A DNA stretch of 41,138 bases from Sedimentisphaerales bacterium (GTDB lineage: Bacteria; Planctomycetota; Phycisphaerae; Sedimentisphaerales; Anaerobacaceae): the NCBI GenBank assembly GCA_016932095.1, contig JAFGDN010000002.1:1-41138 (forward strand), given 5' to 3'. This document shows, one piece after another, positions 1,836 through 31,649 of this stretch. A program made the translations under genes and the position numbers. How positions within the stretch are numbered: position 1 is the stretch's first letter; each line of letters opens with the position of its first letter. Below the pieces are notes generated by a model. It had not been told where the DNA came from and made no database searches. It saw only the letters and a list, made by a program, of their open reading frames with translations.

Positions 1836-2603
1836 ATGGAACATCAGACAGACATAAACAAGGCGGTTCGCCAGCACGCAGAAATGGCGGAGTATTTCAG
1901 CGGGGGGATTACTGTAAAAAAATTCACCGCGGAGCACGCAGAGACCACAACGAAAGAAATTAAATTAAACCCTGTGAACTCCGAGGTCTCGGCATTGAGA
2001 AAAAACGCATCGCTGGAAACCATCAAGGAGATTGATGGTATTGCCGAAGAATCGCGACGATGCCGAAAGTGCGACCTCGGTGAGCTTCGAACAAATGCAG
2101 TGCCGGGGGAAGGAAGCCCGTCGGCCCGGATTATGTTTGTCGGCGAGGCGCCCGGGGCGGATGAAGACGCACAGGGCAGACCATTTGTGGGCCGAGCGGG
2201 ACAACTGCTTGATAAAATCATAGCGGCCTGCGGTCTTAAACGGCAAGATGTGTGGATAGGTAACATTCTCAAGTGCCGGCCGCCGGATAACCGCGACCCG
2301 AGGCCCGAAGAGATAGTCGCGTGTCTCCCCTTTCTGCAAAGACAAATCGAGCTGATAAATCCGGAGGTCATCGTCGCCTTGGGCGCTCACGCGGCAAAGA
2401 CACTTCTCGATACTCCGAAGTCCATAGGACAATTACGGGGATTATTTCACGATTATGTACCCGGCATCGGCCATCGTCCTATAAAACTTATGCCTACATT
2501 CCACCCGGCATATCTTCTGCGAAATTACAGCGATGAAAACCGCAGAAAGGTCTGGGAAGATATGAAAAAAGTCCTTACAGAAATCGGTTTGCCAATCCCT
2601 TAA
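1836..2603 (+). CDS. family-4 (iron-sulfur) uracil-DNA glycosylase
   Basis: This enzyme removes uracil from DNA in base-excision repair. Visible hallmarks are the first cysteine pair CRKC near residue 76, the uracil-pocket motif GEAPG near 102, then [13 protein letters not shown]. The third and fourth cluster cysteines are in NILKCRPP and EEIVAC, spaced as in family 4, and the C-terminal motif is [10 protein letters not shown]. The 255 residues exceed the usual length of about 200 because of an N-terminal extension. That extension has a short helix-like part (1-27), then a segment at about residues 30-54 that is the translation of a dispersed palindromic repeat. There is no good Shine-Dalgarno sequence before the ATG at 1836. 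I keep this start because the first 27 residues look like a genuine N-terminus, but a later start is possible. Confidence 0.93.
1925..1993 (+). repeat. family A palindromic repeat, in-frame copy inside the udg gene
   Basis: The left arm starts ACCGCGGAGCACGCAGAGAC (from 1926). The right arm (about 1971-1993) is a degenerate inverted copy of the same unit, around an AT-rich centre. Read in the gene's frame it gives [20 protein letters not shown]. Compare the copy in holB at 30633-30703, which gives TAEHAEAAEKKHKINSACSA in the same frame. Confidence 0.8.
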
Positions 2604-13559: not shown

Positions 13560-15821
13560 TTATCTCGGCCCAGGTCCTTTGACGAGGACGGGTTCTCCAT
13601 CGACCATCAGCAGAATATCTCCCTGACGCGCGACACTGCCCTGCTGACTGGCTTTGGCGAGCTTTGCCACAAGCTCGAAATATTCCGGCGTCGCAAATTC
13701 AATCACACGCGAGGGTTTAATGTCCGATTCCCTGCTTACAAGCCGGCTATCGACCCAGCGATTACCCTTGCGATAATACGCCTGGCTATTAATTTGCTGG
13801 ACGTTGGTTACTAAAACCTCTTCCATGTGGTCATTCAAATAAGTGTTATGTATATTCAGCGTTTGCTGTGCCTTCTGAGCCATCACATTTTTACTTTGAC
13901 TAACGCCGGCGCTGCCGCTGCGAATTTCCAACGCCCTGTCCAAGCTCCTGCCCGCTTCTCTAAGCACTTCATCGCGGTCGGCAAGGTTAGTTCCATCAGT
14001 TGCCAGAAACGCCGTGTATTCGGTCAGTATTCCATACTCCATCGACAGCTTAACAATCTCATCGACCAGCTCTTTAATTTTTGGGTCAGTGGTTGACGTT
14101 CCCGGCTCGGCTCCCATTTGCCGGACGGCGTCGATAAGCTGGGCAATCTTTCTGCTTGCCCAAAGTCGCGGCACAAAGCCGTTTTTGACGGTCGCCTTGT
14201 CGAATTCAAACGTAAATTGGAACGCCCGTTTTCGGCCCAAGTAATTGCCGTTGAGTTTGAAGGTAATCGGGTCGGTTCCCACATATTGTCCCAGCAGTAT
14301 GACCTGGTCTCCTTCGAAAAGGTCGGGCATCCTGTCGGGCAAGATGTCGCGTGTTCGGCCGACAGCGGGCTTGCCGTTATTGCCGAGAACCTCCAGCTCC
14401 ACGTCTGCGAGAACCGGGCCTTTCAATCCCTGAAATACCTTGCCGATTTTGACCTCGACGTCTTCTTTGGGCAGCACAAATTCCGACTTACCCTTCGATT
14501 CCGAGGCAATTTTGTCCAAAAGCGGGGCATTCAAATCGACGCCTACGCCAAATGTAAAGACCCGCCGCTTATAGGGGTTTGACTTTATAACAAGCTCGCG
14601 AATAGCGACCTCGGATGTCTGGCCCACCGTTGGTAATCCGTCGGTTAAAAACAGGACTATGGGCAGCATATCTTCCGTTGGTTTTTGTTCGAGAGCGGCT
14701 TTGAGGGCGTCGTAGATATTCGTCCCGCCAGAGGCGGTGATTCCCTCGATATACGCCTTTGCGGCCTTTGCGGTTTCGTCAGTTTTGATGACCGCGTTCG
14801 GCGAAAACCGCTGGACGGTATTACTGTAAACGATAATGTTAAACGCCTCGCCTTTTTCGAGGCCGGCGATAACCTGAAGCGCCGCCTCTTTGACCTGCTC
14901 GATTTTTTCATTGCGCATACTTCCCGACTGGTCAATCACAAGCGTAATTTCTCTCTTGATTTTCTGGTCGGCTGATTTTGGGGGTTCCGCGGGGAGGCCG
15001 GCGATTAGAAGAAAATATCCTCCGCCGACCTTGTCATCGGGGTAAGCCAGCATCGATGCCGTTACGCCGTTATGCTCGTGAAGATATGAAAGTCGAAAAG
15101 GCCCCGGCTCCCTTCTGGCTTTTTCGGCAAGCTTTACTTTTAAGTTCTTTTCATCACTACGCACAATCTCAACCTTGTGGCTGGGTGAATAGACGGTCGA
15201 TATCGCTCGTTTTGCCCTGATGTTGACGGTTATTTCCCAGGGCACGTCGTAATCGAGCGATTCGGTCCTCGGCAGGACATAATCGACGCGGTCGCCGTCG
15301 GTTTCGAGCAGGTGCTCGTATGTGATGCGGACTTTCTGCTTGCCCCTCGGCTCAACGGGAAAAACGCTGGAGCGTATCAGCCGATAGCCGATAAATTCGA
15401 CGAGGGCCGGGTCACGAATTTTCGCGACAAGCTGCTCGTAGATTCTTCTGGCCTCATCTTTTGCCAGAATCTTTGCCGTAATTTCACCGCCGGGGCCGTC
15501 GTAGGCGAAGCCGCGAATCACAACGTCATCAGGCACGGGCAGCAGCAATTCCGCCTCCTGCCGACGGTTTGTCCTGTTCTCGAGTCGAATCTCGATTGTC
15601 GTCGTTGCGGTGCTTTCGAGGATGTCTATTAAGACCTTCACATCCGTTATCGCGATTGCCTCTCCCGTCTCTGGCTGGAAAAAAGCAATTCTCCTGCTCT
15701 GCGGGACAATCACGTTTAAGGCGATGGGCCTTTCGCCTATGTGGGTTATTTCTCCCAATACGGTGCCTGCAAAAACCAGCATAAACAATATGCCGAGCCC
15801 TGCGTTTCTAATCTTGGCCAT
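13560..15821 (-). CDS. VIT and VWA domain protein (inter-alpha-trypsin-inhibitor heavy-chain-like)
   Basis: At 753 residues it has a signal peptide (1-23). A VIT domain (about 30-165) contains the typical stretches NRTNRRQEAELLLPVPD and AKDEARRIYEQLV. A VWA domain (about 285-465) has a complete metal-site motif DQSGSM and a later strand VLFLTDGLPTVG. The C-terminal region of about 280 residues includes the conserved helix RLWASRKIAQLIDAVRQ usual in this family. AGGAG lies before the ATG. The promoter in front carries the 11-bp direct repeat shared with the response-regulator gene. Bacterial VIT-VWA proteins are common in Planctomycetes, and most are of unknown function. Confidence 0.9.
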   Translation of the reverse strand: MAKIRNAGLGILFMLVFAGTVLGEITHIGERPIALNVIVPQSRRIAFFQPETGEAIAITDVKVLIDILESTATTTIEIRLENRTNRRQEAELLLPVPDDVVIRGFAYDGPGGEITAKILAKDEARRIYEQLVAKIRDPALVEFIGYRLIRSSVFPVEPRGKQKVRITYEHLLETDGDRVDYVLPRTESLDYDVPWEITVNIRAKRAISTVYSPSHKVEIVRSDEKNLKVKLAEKARREPGPFRLSYLHEHNGVTASMLAYPDDKVGGGYFLLIAGLPAEPPKSADQKIKREITLVIDQSGSMRNEKIEQVKEAALQVIAGLEKGEAFNIIVYSNTVQRFSPNAVIKTDETAKAAKAYIEGITASGGTNIYDALKAALEQKPTEDMLPIVLFLTDGLPTVGQTSEVAIRELVIKSNPYKRRVFTFGVGVDLNAPLLDKIASESKGKSEFVLPKEDVEVKIGKVFQGLKGPVLADVELEVLGNNGKPAVGRTRDILPDRMPDLFEGDQVILLGQYVGTDPITFKLNGNYLGRKRAFQFTFEFDKATVKNGFVPRLWASRKIAQLIDAVRQMGAEPGTSTTDPKIKELVDEIVKLSMEYGILTEYTAFLATDGTNLADRDEVLREAGRSLDRALEIRSGSAGVSQSKNVMAQKAQQTLNIHNTYLNDHMEEVLVTNVQQINSQAYYRKGNRWVDSRLVSRESDIKPSRVIEFATPEYFELVAKLAKASQQGSVARQGDILLMVDGEPVLVKGPGPR

Positions 15822-28912: not shown

Positions 28913-29551
28913 GTGTTTTCGAAAAGCAAATTTGCAGGTAAATTTATCGCCCTTGACGGGCCGGACGGATGCGGGAAAACGACGCAGACAAAATTACTCG
29001 TTGACTGGCTGGCTAAGCAGGGTGTGGACGTGGTCGGTTTCCGTGAGCCGGGAGCGACGGCCATTGGCGAGAAAATTAGAGACATCCTGCTAAATCCCGA
29101 ACACAAGGCGATGGACACCGCTACAGAGGTAATGCTCTATATGGCGGCGAGGGTGCAATTATGGAATGAGAAAATCTCGCCTGCCTTGAAAGACAATAAA
29201 TGCGTTGTTGTTGACCGCTGGTTGTCGAGCACCTGCGCGTATCAGGGTAACGCGGGCGGATTCGGAATGGATAAGGTCATAAAAATCGCGACCGACTGCC
29301 TTGAAAGGCCCTGGCCTGATTTAACAATTATACTCGACATTGACCTCGAAACCGCGGCAAAACGACTCAAAAAAGACCTCGACCGGATGGAGCAAAAAGG
29401 CGACAACTATCACCGAAAGGTGCGCGAGGGCTTTCTAAAACTCGCCAAACAACACAGGGATTTCATCGTCGTTGATGCGACGGGCGATATAAATACAGTG
29501 CAGGAAAAAGTTTTAGAAATAATTTCACAATACAAACAGCCAGCCGGCTAA
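28913..29551 (+). CDS. tmk: thymidylate kinase
   Basis: This enzyme phosphorylates dTMP to dTDP for DNA synthesis. The 212 residues match the family. It has a P-loop GPDGCGKTT near residues 16-24, the DR motif in VVDRWLSSTCAYQG and a lid region with KRLKKDLDRMEQKG. The start is a GTG at 28913, one base after the upstream stop codon, with GAGGAG at 28898-28903. It leads a run of housekeeping genes also containing holB, ricT and metG, an order close to that of Bacillus. The accessory nucleotidyltransferase gene is fused onto its leader by proximity, so tmk expression may depend on the island's promoter. Confidence 0.95.
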   Translation: MFSKSKFAGKFIALDGPDGCGKTTQTKLLVDWLAKQGVDVVGFREPGATAIGEKIRDILLNPEHKAMDTATEVMLYMAARVQLWNEKISPALKDNKCVVVDRWLSSTCAYQGNAGGFGMDKVIKIATDCLERPWPDLTIILDIDLETAAKRLKKDLDRMEQKGDNYHRKVREGFLKLAKQHRDFIVVDATGDINTVQEKVLEIISQYKQPAG

Positions 29552-29567
29552 TCAGGAGAACTAATCA

Positions 29568-30446
29568 ATGAACAATTACAGGAATCAGACCGCATTTTTG
29601 CTTATTGCAGCAGTTATGGTTTTCGCCGCCGGCTGCCCGCAGCAAAGGTATGAGCCGATTGTCCTGGCCGCCGCACAGGGCGAAACAGCGAAGGTTCGCG
29701 CCCTCCTTGCACAGGGCGCCAATATCAATGTCATGGACAGGGGCTTTACGCCGCTGCTTGTCGCGCTTCAAAGGGGACAAATTGAGACCGCACGCATGCT
29801 CATCGAGGCAGGCGCCGACGTCAAAGTTGTTGATGAGCAATGCGGCTTCAGTGCGCTTGCTTTTGCAGCGTTCGAGGGCGACACCGAAATCTGTAAAATG
29901 CTGATAGACCGCGGCGCCGACCTCGAATCGACAAACCGGCTTTGCGCGCCTTTCGGCTCGATGGGGGGAGAAACACCCCTGATTATCGCCGCCATTAAAA
30001 ACCGCGTTGAGGTGGTCAGGATGCTTATTGATTCGGGGGCGAAAATCAACGCGAAAAACAACCTTGACCGCACGGCAATTATGGAGGCCAGCTTTTACGG
30101 CAATACAGGGGTTGTCGAAGTGCTGATACGGGCGGGAGCGGACGTAAACGGCCTCGACGTGAACCGCGGAACCCCCCTGATTTTCGCGACCGTAAAGAAC
30201 CATACAAAAACGATGGAAGCCCTGATTACCGCGGGCGCCGACCTGAACACGACCGATAACGAGGGCTTCACGGCATTGATAATAGCCGTTATCAAAGGGC
30301 ACAAGGAAGCCGCAAAATTATTGATTGACAGGGGTGCCGACCTTAACGTAAGGGCATCCGACGGAAACACGGCACTGTCGATCGCCAAACAAAAGCAAAA
30401 CAACGAGCTTGTTAAAATGCTCACTGCCGCCGGCGCAACGGAATAA
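29568..30446 (+). CDS. ankyrin-repeat lipoprotein
   Basis: A 292-residue lipoprotein precursor. The signal sequence ends in the lipobox VFAAGC (Cys near residue 23). About eight ankyrin repeats of 33 residues follow, each with patterns such as TPLLVALQRGQIETARMLIE and GADVKVVD. Ankyrin repeats mediate protein binding. It is unusual between tmk and holB, two cytoplasmic replication genes, and lies 16 bases after tmk and 12 before holB, so it is co-transcribed. The ATG at 29568 has AGGAG eleven bases upstream. Location in the periplasm or at the membrane is inferred from the lipobox. Confidence 0.88.
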   Translation: MNNYRNQTAFLLIAAVMVFAAGCPQQRYEPIVLAAAQGETAKVRALLAQGANINVMDRGFTPLLVALQRGQIETARMLIEAGADVKVVDEQCGFSALAFAAFEGDTEICKMLIDRGADLESTNRLCAPFGSMGGETPLIIAAIKNRVEVVRMLIDSGAKINAKNNLDRTAIMEASFYGNTGVVEVLIRAGADVNGLDVNRGTPLIFATVKNHTKTMEALITAGADLNTTDNEGFTALIIAVIKGHKEAAKLLIDRGADLNVRASDGNTALSIAKQKQNNELVKMLTAAGATE

Positions 30447-30458
30447 GCCGGTCTTCTT

Positions 30459-31649
30459 ATGATGACACTGAAAGACATTTTCTGCCAGGAAAAAGCAATC
30501 AACGCGCTTCAGCTTGCCTTTGTCGGCGATAAGGTCGCGCACGCGTATATATTCGCGGGAAATGACGGCGTGGGGAAGTTCACTACCGCACGCAAATTCG
30601 CAAAGCTTTTGTTGTGTAAAAACCCATTTTTTACCGCCGAGCACGCTGAGGCCGCAGAGAAAAAACATAAAATAAACTCTGCGTGCTCTGCGGTCTCTGC
30701 GGTGAATGAGTTTGCCGATTCCTGCGGCAATTGCGAATCCTGCCGGCTGTTCGAGGCCGGCTCACATCCCGATTTTGAGCACGTCTATAAAGAGCTAATC
30801 GAATTTACCGAAGACGGCGAGAACAAGGTGCCGCCTGTTGAGTTTCCCATTGATGTCGTCCGCGAATTTGTCATTGAAAAAGTCAGCAGCAAGCCCACCC
30901 TGTCAACAAGAAAGGTTTTTATCCTGACCGAAGCGGAGAAGCTCAACAATCCATCACAAAACTGCCTTTTGAAGGTTCTCGAAGAGCCGCCGGGATATTG
31001 CTGCATTATCCTTATATGCACCCGGCCGGATAAACTTGTGCCGACAATCAGGTCTCGATGCCAAATCCTGCGGTTTGGCCCCGTCGCGGAAAACAAAATA
31101 ATCGAAAAATTGAACGAAATTGGCCTCGATGAAAAACGGGCGAAATTTTTCTCGCGTTTCGTCGGGGGCAGTATCGGCCTTGCCTGTCTTTACGCCCGGC
31201 TCGAACAAAACGGGGCAAACCTTTACCAGACAAAAACAGAGCTTGTGGATGTTATCGCGAAATTAGAGTATAAGGATTCAGTTGAACTGGCTGAGGATTT
31301 CCAGCAGCAATCAAAAGACCTCGCGGCCCTGTGGGCCAAAATAGACCCTGGAACGAGCAAAACAGATATTAACCGCAAGGCCGCTAAAACTATTGTGCAG
31401 GTTGTCATAGCCGCCCTTCACGATGCTATGCTGGTCAACCTTGATAATGGCGACAAAATCGTCAATTTTGACCAGCCGGAGCAAATAAAGACACTCGCCC
31501 GGCGATTCGACGCCGAGCAGGCCGCCCGGGAAATCGCCGACTGCTTTAAAATGCTTAACTGGGTGGAATCATCCGTCAACGAAAAGCTTATTTTCGAGCA
31601 TCTATTGTTAAACCTGGCCGAAACTGATAAAATCATATCGAAACTTTAA
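30459..31649 (+). CDS. holB: DNA polymerase III delta-prime subunit with in-frame repeat insertion
   Basis: This clamp-loader subunit is the AAA+ partner of DnaX. In 396 residues it has a P-loop GNDGVGKFTTAR near 28-40, a zinc module formed by Cys in LLLCKN and the cluster CGNCESC, and the AAA+ segments KVFILTEAEKLN and FLKVLEEPP. The trio of cysteines is separated from the first by about 35 residues instead of the usual 9 or so. That extra stretch (TAEHAEAAEKKHKINSACSA...) is the translation of a family A palindromic repeat. The insertion keeps the frame and sits in a surface loop. The start is ATG ATG at 30459; either could be used. Confidence 0.92.
   Translation: MMTLKDIFCQEKAINALQLAFVGDKVAHAYIFAGNDGVGKFTTARKFAKLLLCKNPFFTAEHAEAAEKKHKINSACSAVSAVNEFADSCGNCESCRLFEAGSHPDFEHVYKELIEFTEDGENKVPPVEFPIDVVREFVIEKVSSKPTLSTRKVFILTEAEKLNNPSQNCLLKVLEEPPGYCCIILICTRPDKLVPTIRSRCQILRFGPVAENKIIEKLNEIGLDEKRAKFFSRFVGGSIGLACLYARLEQNGANLYQTKTELVDVIAKLEYKDSVELAEDFQQQSKDLAALWAKIDPGTSKTDINRKAAKTIVQVVIAALHDAMLVNLDNGDKIVNFDQPEQIKTLARRFDAEQAAREIADCFKMLNWVESSVNEKLIFEHLLLNLAETDKIISKL
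30633..30703 (+). repeat. family A palindromic repeat, in-frame copy inside holB
   Basis: The left arm at 30633-30659 begins ACCGCCGAGCACGCTGAGGC. The right arm at 30677-30703 is its near-inverse and ends CTCTGCGGTCTCTGCGGT. The arms of 27 bases surround an AT-rich centre of 17 bases. No stop codon occurs in the gene's frame. Confidence 0.88.

Follow-up and report, generated by a model that had tools for sequence, protein, structure and literature searches.

How does the gene for an essential clamp loader subunit come to be read, without interruption, through a palindromic repeat? The question is raised by holB in a 41,138-nucleotide stretch of a Sedimentisphaerales bacterium genome (the whole of which we call the window), where a first-pass annotation, made from the sequence alone, proposed that the replication protein HolB had taken up a mobile palindrome. 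Empty orthologues and repeated copies in the genome support that proposal, and we put at roughly three in four the probability that the insert is a solitary, non-autonomous, MITE-like copy of a dispersed mobile palindrome whose complete copies hold an ORF for a GxxExxY protein. The features concerned are collected in Table 1.

Table 1. Positions in the window of the palindrome, its second copy and the genes that carry them
Feature	Positions	Strand	Details
Uracil-DNA glycosylase superfamily gene with second copy	1839..2600	+	PF03167, E 2.1e-42, residues 89-243
Second, degenerate element copy, in frame, 25 residues	1923..1999	+	model R1, 52 bits, E 1.8e-11
holB, DNA polymerase III delta prime subunit, 396 aa	30459..31649	+	PF13177 (DNA_pol3_delta2), E 1.6e-42
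In-frame insert, HolB residues 57-84 (FFTAEHAEAAEKKHKINSACSAVSAVNE), 28 aa	30627..30710	+	orthologue alignment; 5 residues in congeners
Left arm	30633..30659	+	three 9-bp units, ACCGCCGAG CACGCTGAG GCCGCAGAG
AT-rich centre (loop), 17 bases, AAAAAACATAAAATAAA	30660..30676	+	place of the GxxExxY ORF in complete copies elsewhere
Right arm	30677..30703	-	reverse complement ACCGCAGAG ACCGCAGAG CACGCAGAG

The holB product scores 168 bits against the NCBIfam holB model TIGR00678 (cut-off 180.6), and its nearest solved protein is the E. coli delta prime subunit (1a5t, E 3.9e-17). It is encoded by the sole full-length holB detected in the genome, the remaining own-genome matches to the protein being weak dnaX-like or element-only ones. 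Directly upstream lies a gene for an ankyrin-repeat-like, probably secreted protein (29568-30446), itself preceded by thymidylate kinase (28913-29551). The holB ORF has no stop codon through the palindrome, and the insert falls where the first-pass annotation had placed it, between the first zinc cysteine and the CGNCESC cluster (Cys53 and Cys89-GNC-ESC, with Cys89/92/95), leaving all four zinc cysteines of the module intact. The open frame and the insertion stand as first described; the first estimate of about 25 added residues can be made exact, as 28 residues here take the place of 5 in congeners and lengthen the protein by 23 aa (69 bp).

The stretch that reads NPFFTAEHAEAAEKKHKINSACSAVSAVNEF in this HolB corresponds to NPVKRGNF, NPVRKGDF and NPIKKGDF in the three genomes of the same genus (LLLCKNPVKRGNFTDSC, LLLCKNPVRKGDFTDSC, LLLCKNPIKKGDFTDSC). 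The insert is absent from the 29 orthologue loci listed and from the third congener, among them all three available same-genus genomes, and because all three same-genus orthologues have five residues at this place, the insertion is recent. Absence from relatives had been predicted, together with edges bounded exactly by the arms; the former is what we find, whereas the edges of the insert differ from the arm ends at base level, where divergence prevents exact placement of the junctions. The loop itself varies in length among relatives in the orthologue alignment, and in a genome of another genus (G007, genus g5; L024) HolB carries a different foreign stretch in the same loop (GGGCGACGAGCAACGAGCGACGAGCGACGA; repeat GCGACGAGCAACGAGCGACGAGCGACGA), a repeat with about 30 matches in that genome. 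Unrelated repeats have thus invaded the HolB loop twice, independently, in two genera, which marks it as a tolerant site, and HolB is likely to remain functional with the added surface peptide.

The palindrome has the geometry first described, two 27-base inverted arms around an AT-rich centre, though the arms are imperfect, with 21 of 27 positions paired. When the window was shuffled 20 times, the best arms of like geometry reached 16-18/27. Folded as RNA, the hairpin reaches -37.7 kcal/mol (z = -6.1), and none of 200 shuffles does equally well. An automated inverted-repeat finder missed the palindrome because regular mismatches interrupt its arms, whereas direct pairing and folding detected it. 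The element matches no Rfam family; the sole Rfam hits in the window are two tRNAs. A three-mismatch match to the element at 14757-14774 is probably due to chance.

The element is one member of a dispersed family. The genome holds 35 BLAST matches to the palindrome, and a covariance model finds about 20 loci there (E<1e-9) as well as matches in 22 of 41 genomes of relatives; near-complete copies in the genome number about 20, accompanied by many fragments. The AEHAE peptides, whose recurrence had been suggested as a check, are indeed found in other proteins. Fifteen aligned copies give the consensus TTCACCGCCGAGCACGCNGAGACCGCAGAG - A-rich - CTCTGCGTGCTCTGCGGTCTCTGCGGTGAA, 71-80 bp long with conserved ends TTTCACC and GGTGAAA; each arm is a tandem run of three 9-bp units in which CGC-N-GAG comes after a variable pair of AC/CA type, and the asymmetry between the arms is kept across copies. 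Covariation of base pairs among the copies is weak, so pairing is unsupported beyond arm identity. With genes called on 1.5-kb flanks, the majority of copies are intergenic.

Several copies are nonetheless read as protein. The second copy in the window falls in the N-terminal linker of the uracil-DNA glycosylase (UDG), a site that is occupied by an intact palindrome in congener G001 and by an in-frame shortened copy in G003, and that is free of the element in G002. An Agl23-like membrane protein (TIGR03663) also carries an in-frame copy, its congeners being without the insert, and two ORFs of no known family (L011, L018) contain the element or terminate in it. L018 (G000:C14:36330-36373) is a cysteine-rich protein whose C-terminus (DFTAEHAENAE) is encoded by half an element, which has either supplanted or lengthened the original end. 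The copies in holB, UDG and Agl23 share one orientation and frame (TAEHAE...SAVSAV-like). Of 16 element copies, 8 are open in this frame, and special selection for coding is therefore not needed. Because each 9-bp unit amounts to three codons, an arm could gain or lose units and stay in frame, in keeping with the shortened UDG copy of G003.

Complete copies hold a gene. The half-copy L019 is the front arm of a GxxExxY gene, in which ACCGCCGAGCACGCAGAGGCCGCAGAG is followed directly by the ATG and the inverted arm stands behind the gene; the front arm of the own-genome GxxExxY gene (G000:C41) is identical to the holB left arm at 26 of 27 positions. Across the order, genes of the corresponding family PF13366 have inverted arms at 27 of 30 loci and at 14 of 20 further loci (41/50 in total). 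Of 77 genes taken as controls from around holB in these genomes, a single one exceeded an arm score of 13.5; it is itself a GxxExxY gene, which leaves 0/76. A scan of public genomes with a GxxExxY protein alignment yielded 80 loci, of which 79 could be tested: 59 are armed, in 17 phyla and including three archaeal loci, compared with 13 of 163 neighbouring ORFs used as control. The arm units at these loci are mostly spaced 8-9 bp apart and belong to the families CGCAGAG/CACAGAG, CACGAAG/CATGAAG, CACAGATT/CGCGGATT and others. The first-pass annotation had missed this nuclease gene in complete copies, as it had the UDG copy at 1923-1999 and the second repeat family in the HolB loop.

Arm family requires 11 changes on the GxxExxY protein tree, compared with at least 21 in 300 shuffles, and the GATT arm type requires 2, compared with at least 7. 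Arm type tracks the protein tree, which shows joint inheritance, not recognition. One clade, whose proteins start with a (P/F)GPGLLESIYE-like stretch (L230, L235, L237, L239, L241), has no detectable arms and may be immobile or domesticated. Where a genome has a GxxExxY gene with CGCAGAG arms, solitary copies are more numerous (p = 0.0045, uncorrected for kinship). G001 and G002 have 15 and 32 solitary-copy matches (both strands counted), and their two GxxExxY genes carry a different arm type from these copies, which leaves those two genomes with no partner gene of the right type; the copies would be accounted for if the partner disappeared once they had multiplied, or if a different helper acted on them. 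Eight GxxExxY matches lie on plasmids and none in phages.

At thiC the unit was inserted as a whole, in this genome only. Arms and GxxExxY gene (L095, G000:C41:43606-43956 plus flanks) stand between a TPP riboswitch with its terminator and thiC, the riboswitch being confirmed in the own genome and in three congeners. The unit is absent before thiC in the congeners G001, G002 and G003 and in the family member G004, where the terminator T-run lies directly 5' of the thiC ribosome-binding site and therefore represents the empty site for the complete unit. No target-site duplication is readable at the empty sites of holB or thiC, which are too diverged or too T-rich for junctions to be placed.

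The loop ORF of complete copies encodes GxxExxY (TIGR04256/PF13366; 143-155 bits, cut-off 35), a protein with invariant E, D, E-x-K and Q-x-x-x-Y residues, so that the catalytic E-D-ExK-QxxxY motif is intact. This is the pattern of RecB/Cas4-type PD-(D/E)XK nucleases. A profile search of solved structures returned no sequence relative, and matches came from the fold search alone: the AF2 model (pLDDT 94.6, pTM 0.88) best resembles Cas4 SSO0001 (Z 9.8, 101 residues, 3.8 A), with LHK-Exo, lambda exonuclease and Hjc also among the matches. Since most Z values are middling, the assignment draws on the catalytic motif and the Pfam family, and GxxExxY models as a minimal RecB/Cas4-like PD-(D/E)XK nuclease with a predicted intact active site.

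The elements also have a sister type. In the same genomes, four-helix-bundle genes of PF05635 (23S_rRNA_IVP; L100-L129) are arm-flanked, at a score of 15 or more, at 24 of 30 loci, and their arms consist of 7-9-bp tandem units unlike the GxxExxY-element units in sequence. In the Coxiella intervening sequence (IVS), a stem of 28 bp carries a loop that encodes an S23 four-helix-bundle protein, and heptamer repeats adjoin this ORF (PMC4990558); from this plan and the armed four-helix-bundle genes we conclude that the GxxExxY and four-helix-bundle families have a common architecture. With 23S rRNA IVS the present elements share an inverted-repeat stem, a small loop ORF and short tandem repeats adjoining it, but IVS lie in 23S rRNA and encode S23, whereas the present elements are dispersed, encode GxxExxY and sit in protein genes and intergenic DNA instead of the 23S rRNA location that defines IVS. 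This resemblance, the strong hairpin (-37.7 kcal/mol) and the arms around four-helix-bundle genes are what would recommend an action on RNA like that of rRNA IVS, with RNase III excising the stem and its loop ORF, and holB mRNA being cleaved or the insert being regulatory. Cleavage of mRNA, however, would not call for the uninterrupted frame that holB, UDG and the Agl23-like gene show across the element, and the base pairs of the element scarcely covary; we consider such an action improbable. Less probable by far is that HolB has long had this stretch as a functional part and that its DNA is palindromic by chance, for which the variable loop length among relatives could be adduced. All congeners are without it, and these empty sites already refute an old part. 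The genome also has some 20 occurrences of the same DNA, most of them not in genes of this kind; in the distant orthologues, where conservation of the stretch would have told against insertion, the loci have no insert.

It is also conceivable, though in our view unlikely, that the palindrome is MITE-like and moved by a REP-associated tyrosine transposase (RAYT) or another ordinary transposase, GxxExxY being a passenger in some copies. Repetitive extragenic palindromic (REP) elements are palindromic, sometimes intragenic and linked to RAYT genes, and intragenic REPs encode 20-30 aa and frequently lie in genes of replication and repair, among them uvrA, uvrB and that for DNA polymerase I (PMC3733652). 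The present elements are similarly palindromic, dispersed, sometimes in frame and found in replication and repair genes (holB and UDG), and the genome has one Y1_Tnp gene. That gene, however, matches its family weakly (25.8 bits; NF047646 23 bits of 80), is flanked by other repeats and not by CGCAGAG arms, and was rejected as a RAYT partner; no RAYT gene in the genome is flanked by the element. The Y1_Tnp gene (L051 1370-2300) lies amid the repeat GGGGGTGCCCGCGTGAGGA, likely a separate REP family of the genome. The element ends TTTCACC/GGTGAAA also have no GTAG or CGTC tag, arms flank most GxxExxY loci (59/79) across 17 phyla, and the candidate partner is a PD-(D/E)XK nuclease, not a tyrosine transposase. 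Like MITEs, the solitary copies are short, multicopy, inverted-repeat, geneless and non-autonomous; unlike for MITEs, no DDE transposase partner was identified. The candidate for an autonomous element with matching ends is the own-genome GxxExxY unit, with its arm identity of 26/27 to the holB copy.

Palindromes in frame within genes are thus already known, from intragenic REPs and from Rickettsia, whose palindromic elements (RPEs) are short, genome-repeated and inserted in frame inside unrelated protein genes (PMC10969869). The first-pass likening to RPEs, as a different family, was a fair one: both are multicopy palindromes, with in-frame insertion and empty orthologues here in holB, the Agl23-like gene and UDG (empty in G002). 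RPEs are longer, at about 150 bp against 71-80 bp here, and the present arms are built of 9-bp tandem units, with a nuclease ORF between arms of the same family.

We accordingly return to the solitary copy of a GxxExxY-associated palindrome as the preferred reading. Such a copy would have inserted into the HolB loop that separates the first zinc cysteine from the second, and would survive there by virtue of a frame open through arms and centre, a net length that is a multiple of three and an insertion-tolerant loop. The GxxExxY nuclease may recognise or cut the arm hairpin, for example in single-stranded DNA at the replication fork or in a cruciform, and may mobilise solitary palindromes in trans; both activities are proposed from the association of arms and gene, and no transposition event has been observed for the element. 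More broadly, we see even chances that these loci represent a class of mobile element that is widespread among bacteria and archaea and as yet undescribed, with arms of tandem 8-9-bp units and a GxxExxY nuclease in the loop (or, in the sister type, a four-helix-bundle protein), spreading solitary palindromes in trans, some of which add peptides in frame to essential proteins, HolB among them. On this broader reading, the joint evolution of arm sequence and protein clade would suggest specific recognition.

In the literature searched, in which subscription journals and preprints are few, we found no description of an association between such a nuclease and palindromes, nor, in the portions of the sources available, of palindromic flanks or a mobility role for GxxExxY/PF13366. 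We know of no mobilising protein for many families of in-frame palindromes. The GxxExxY family is widely annotated, and although almost absent from the literature searched, it can now be named as a candidate partner. As the HolB case shows, a replication protein that is essential can accept foreign peptides of this kind in the loop of its zinc module, and has done so independently in two genera. If the nuclease moves the palindromes, they would constitute a mobile element without a recognised transposase, GxxExxY genes would gain a function, and peptides of the TAEHAE/SAVSAV type in environmental proteins would be explained.
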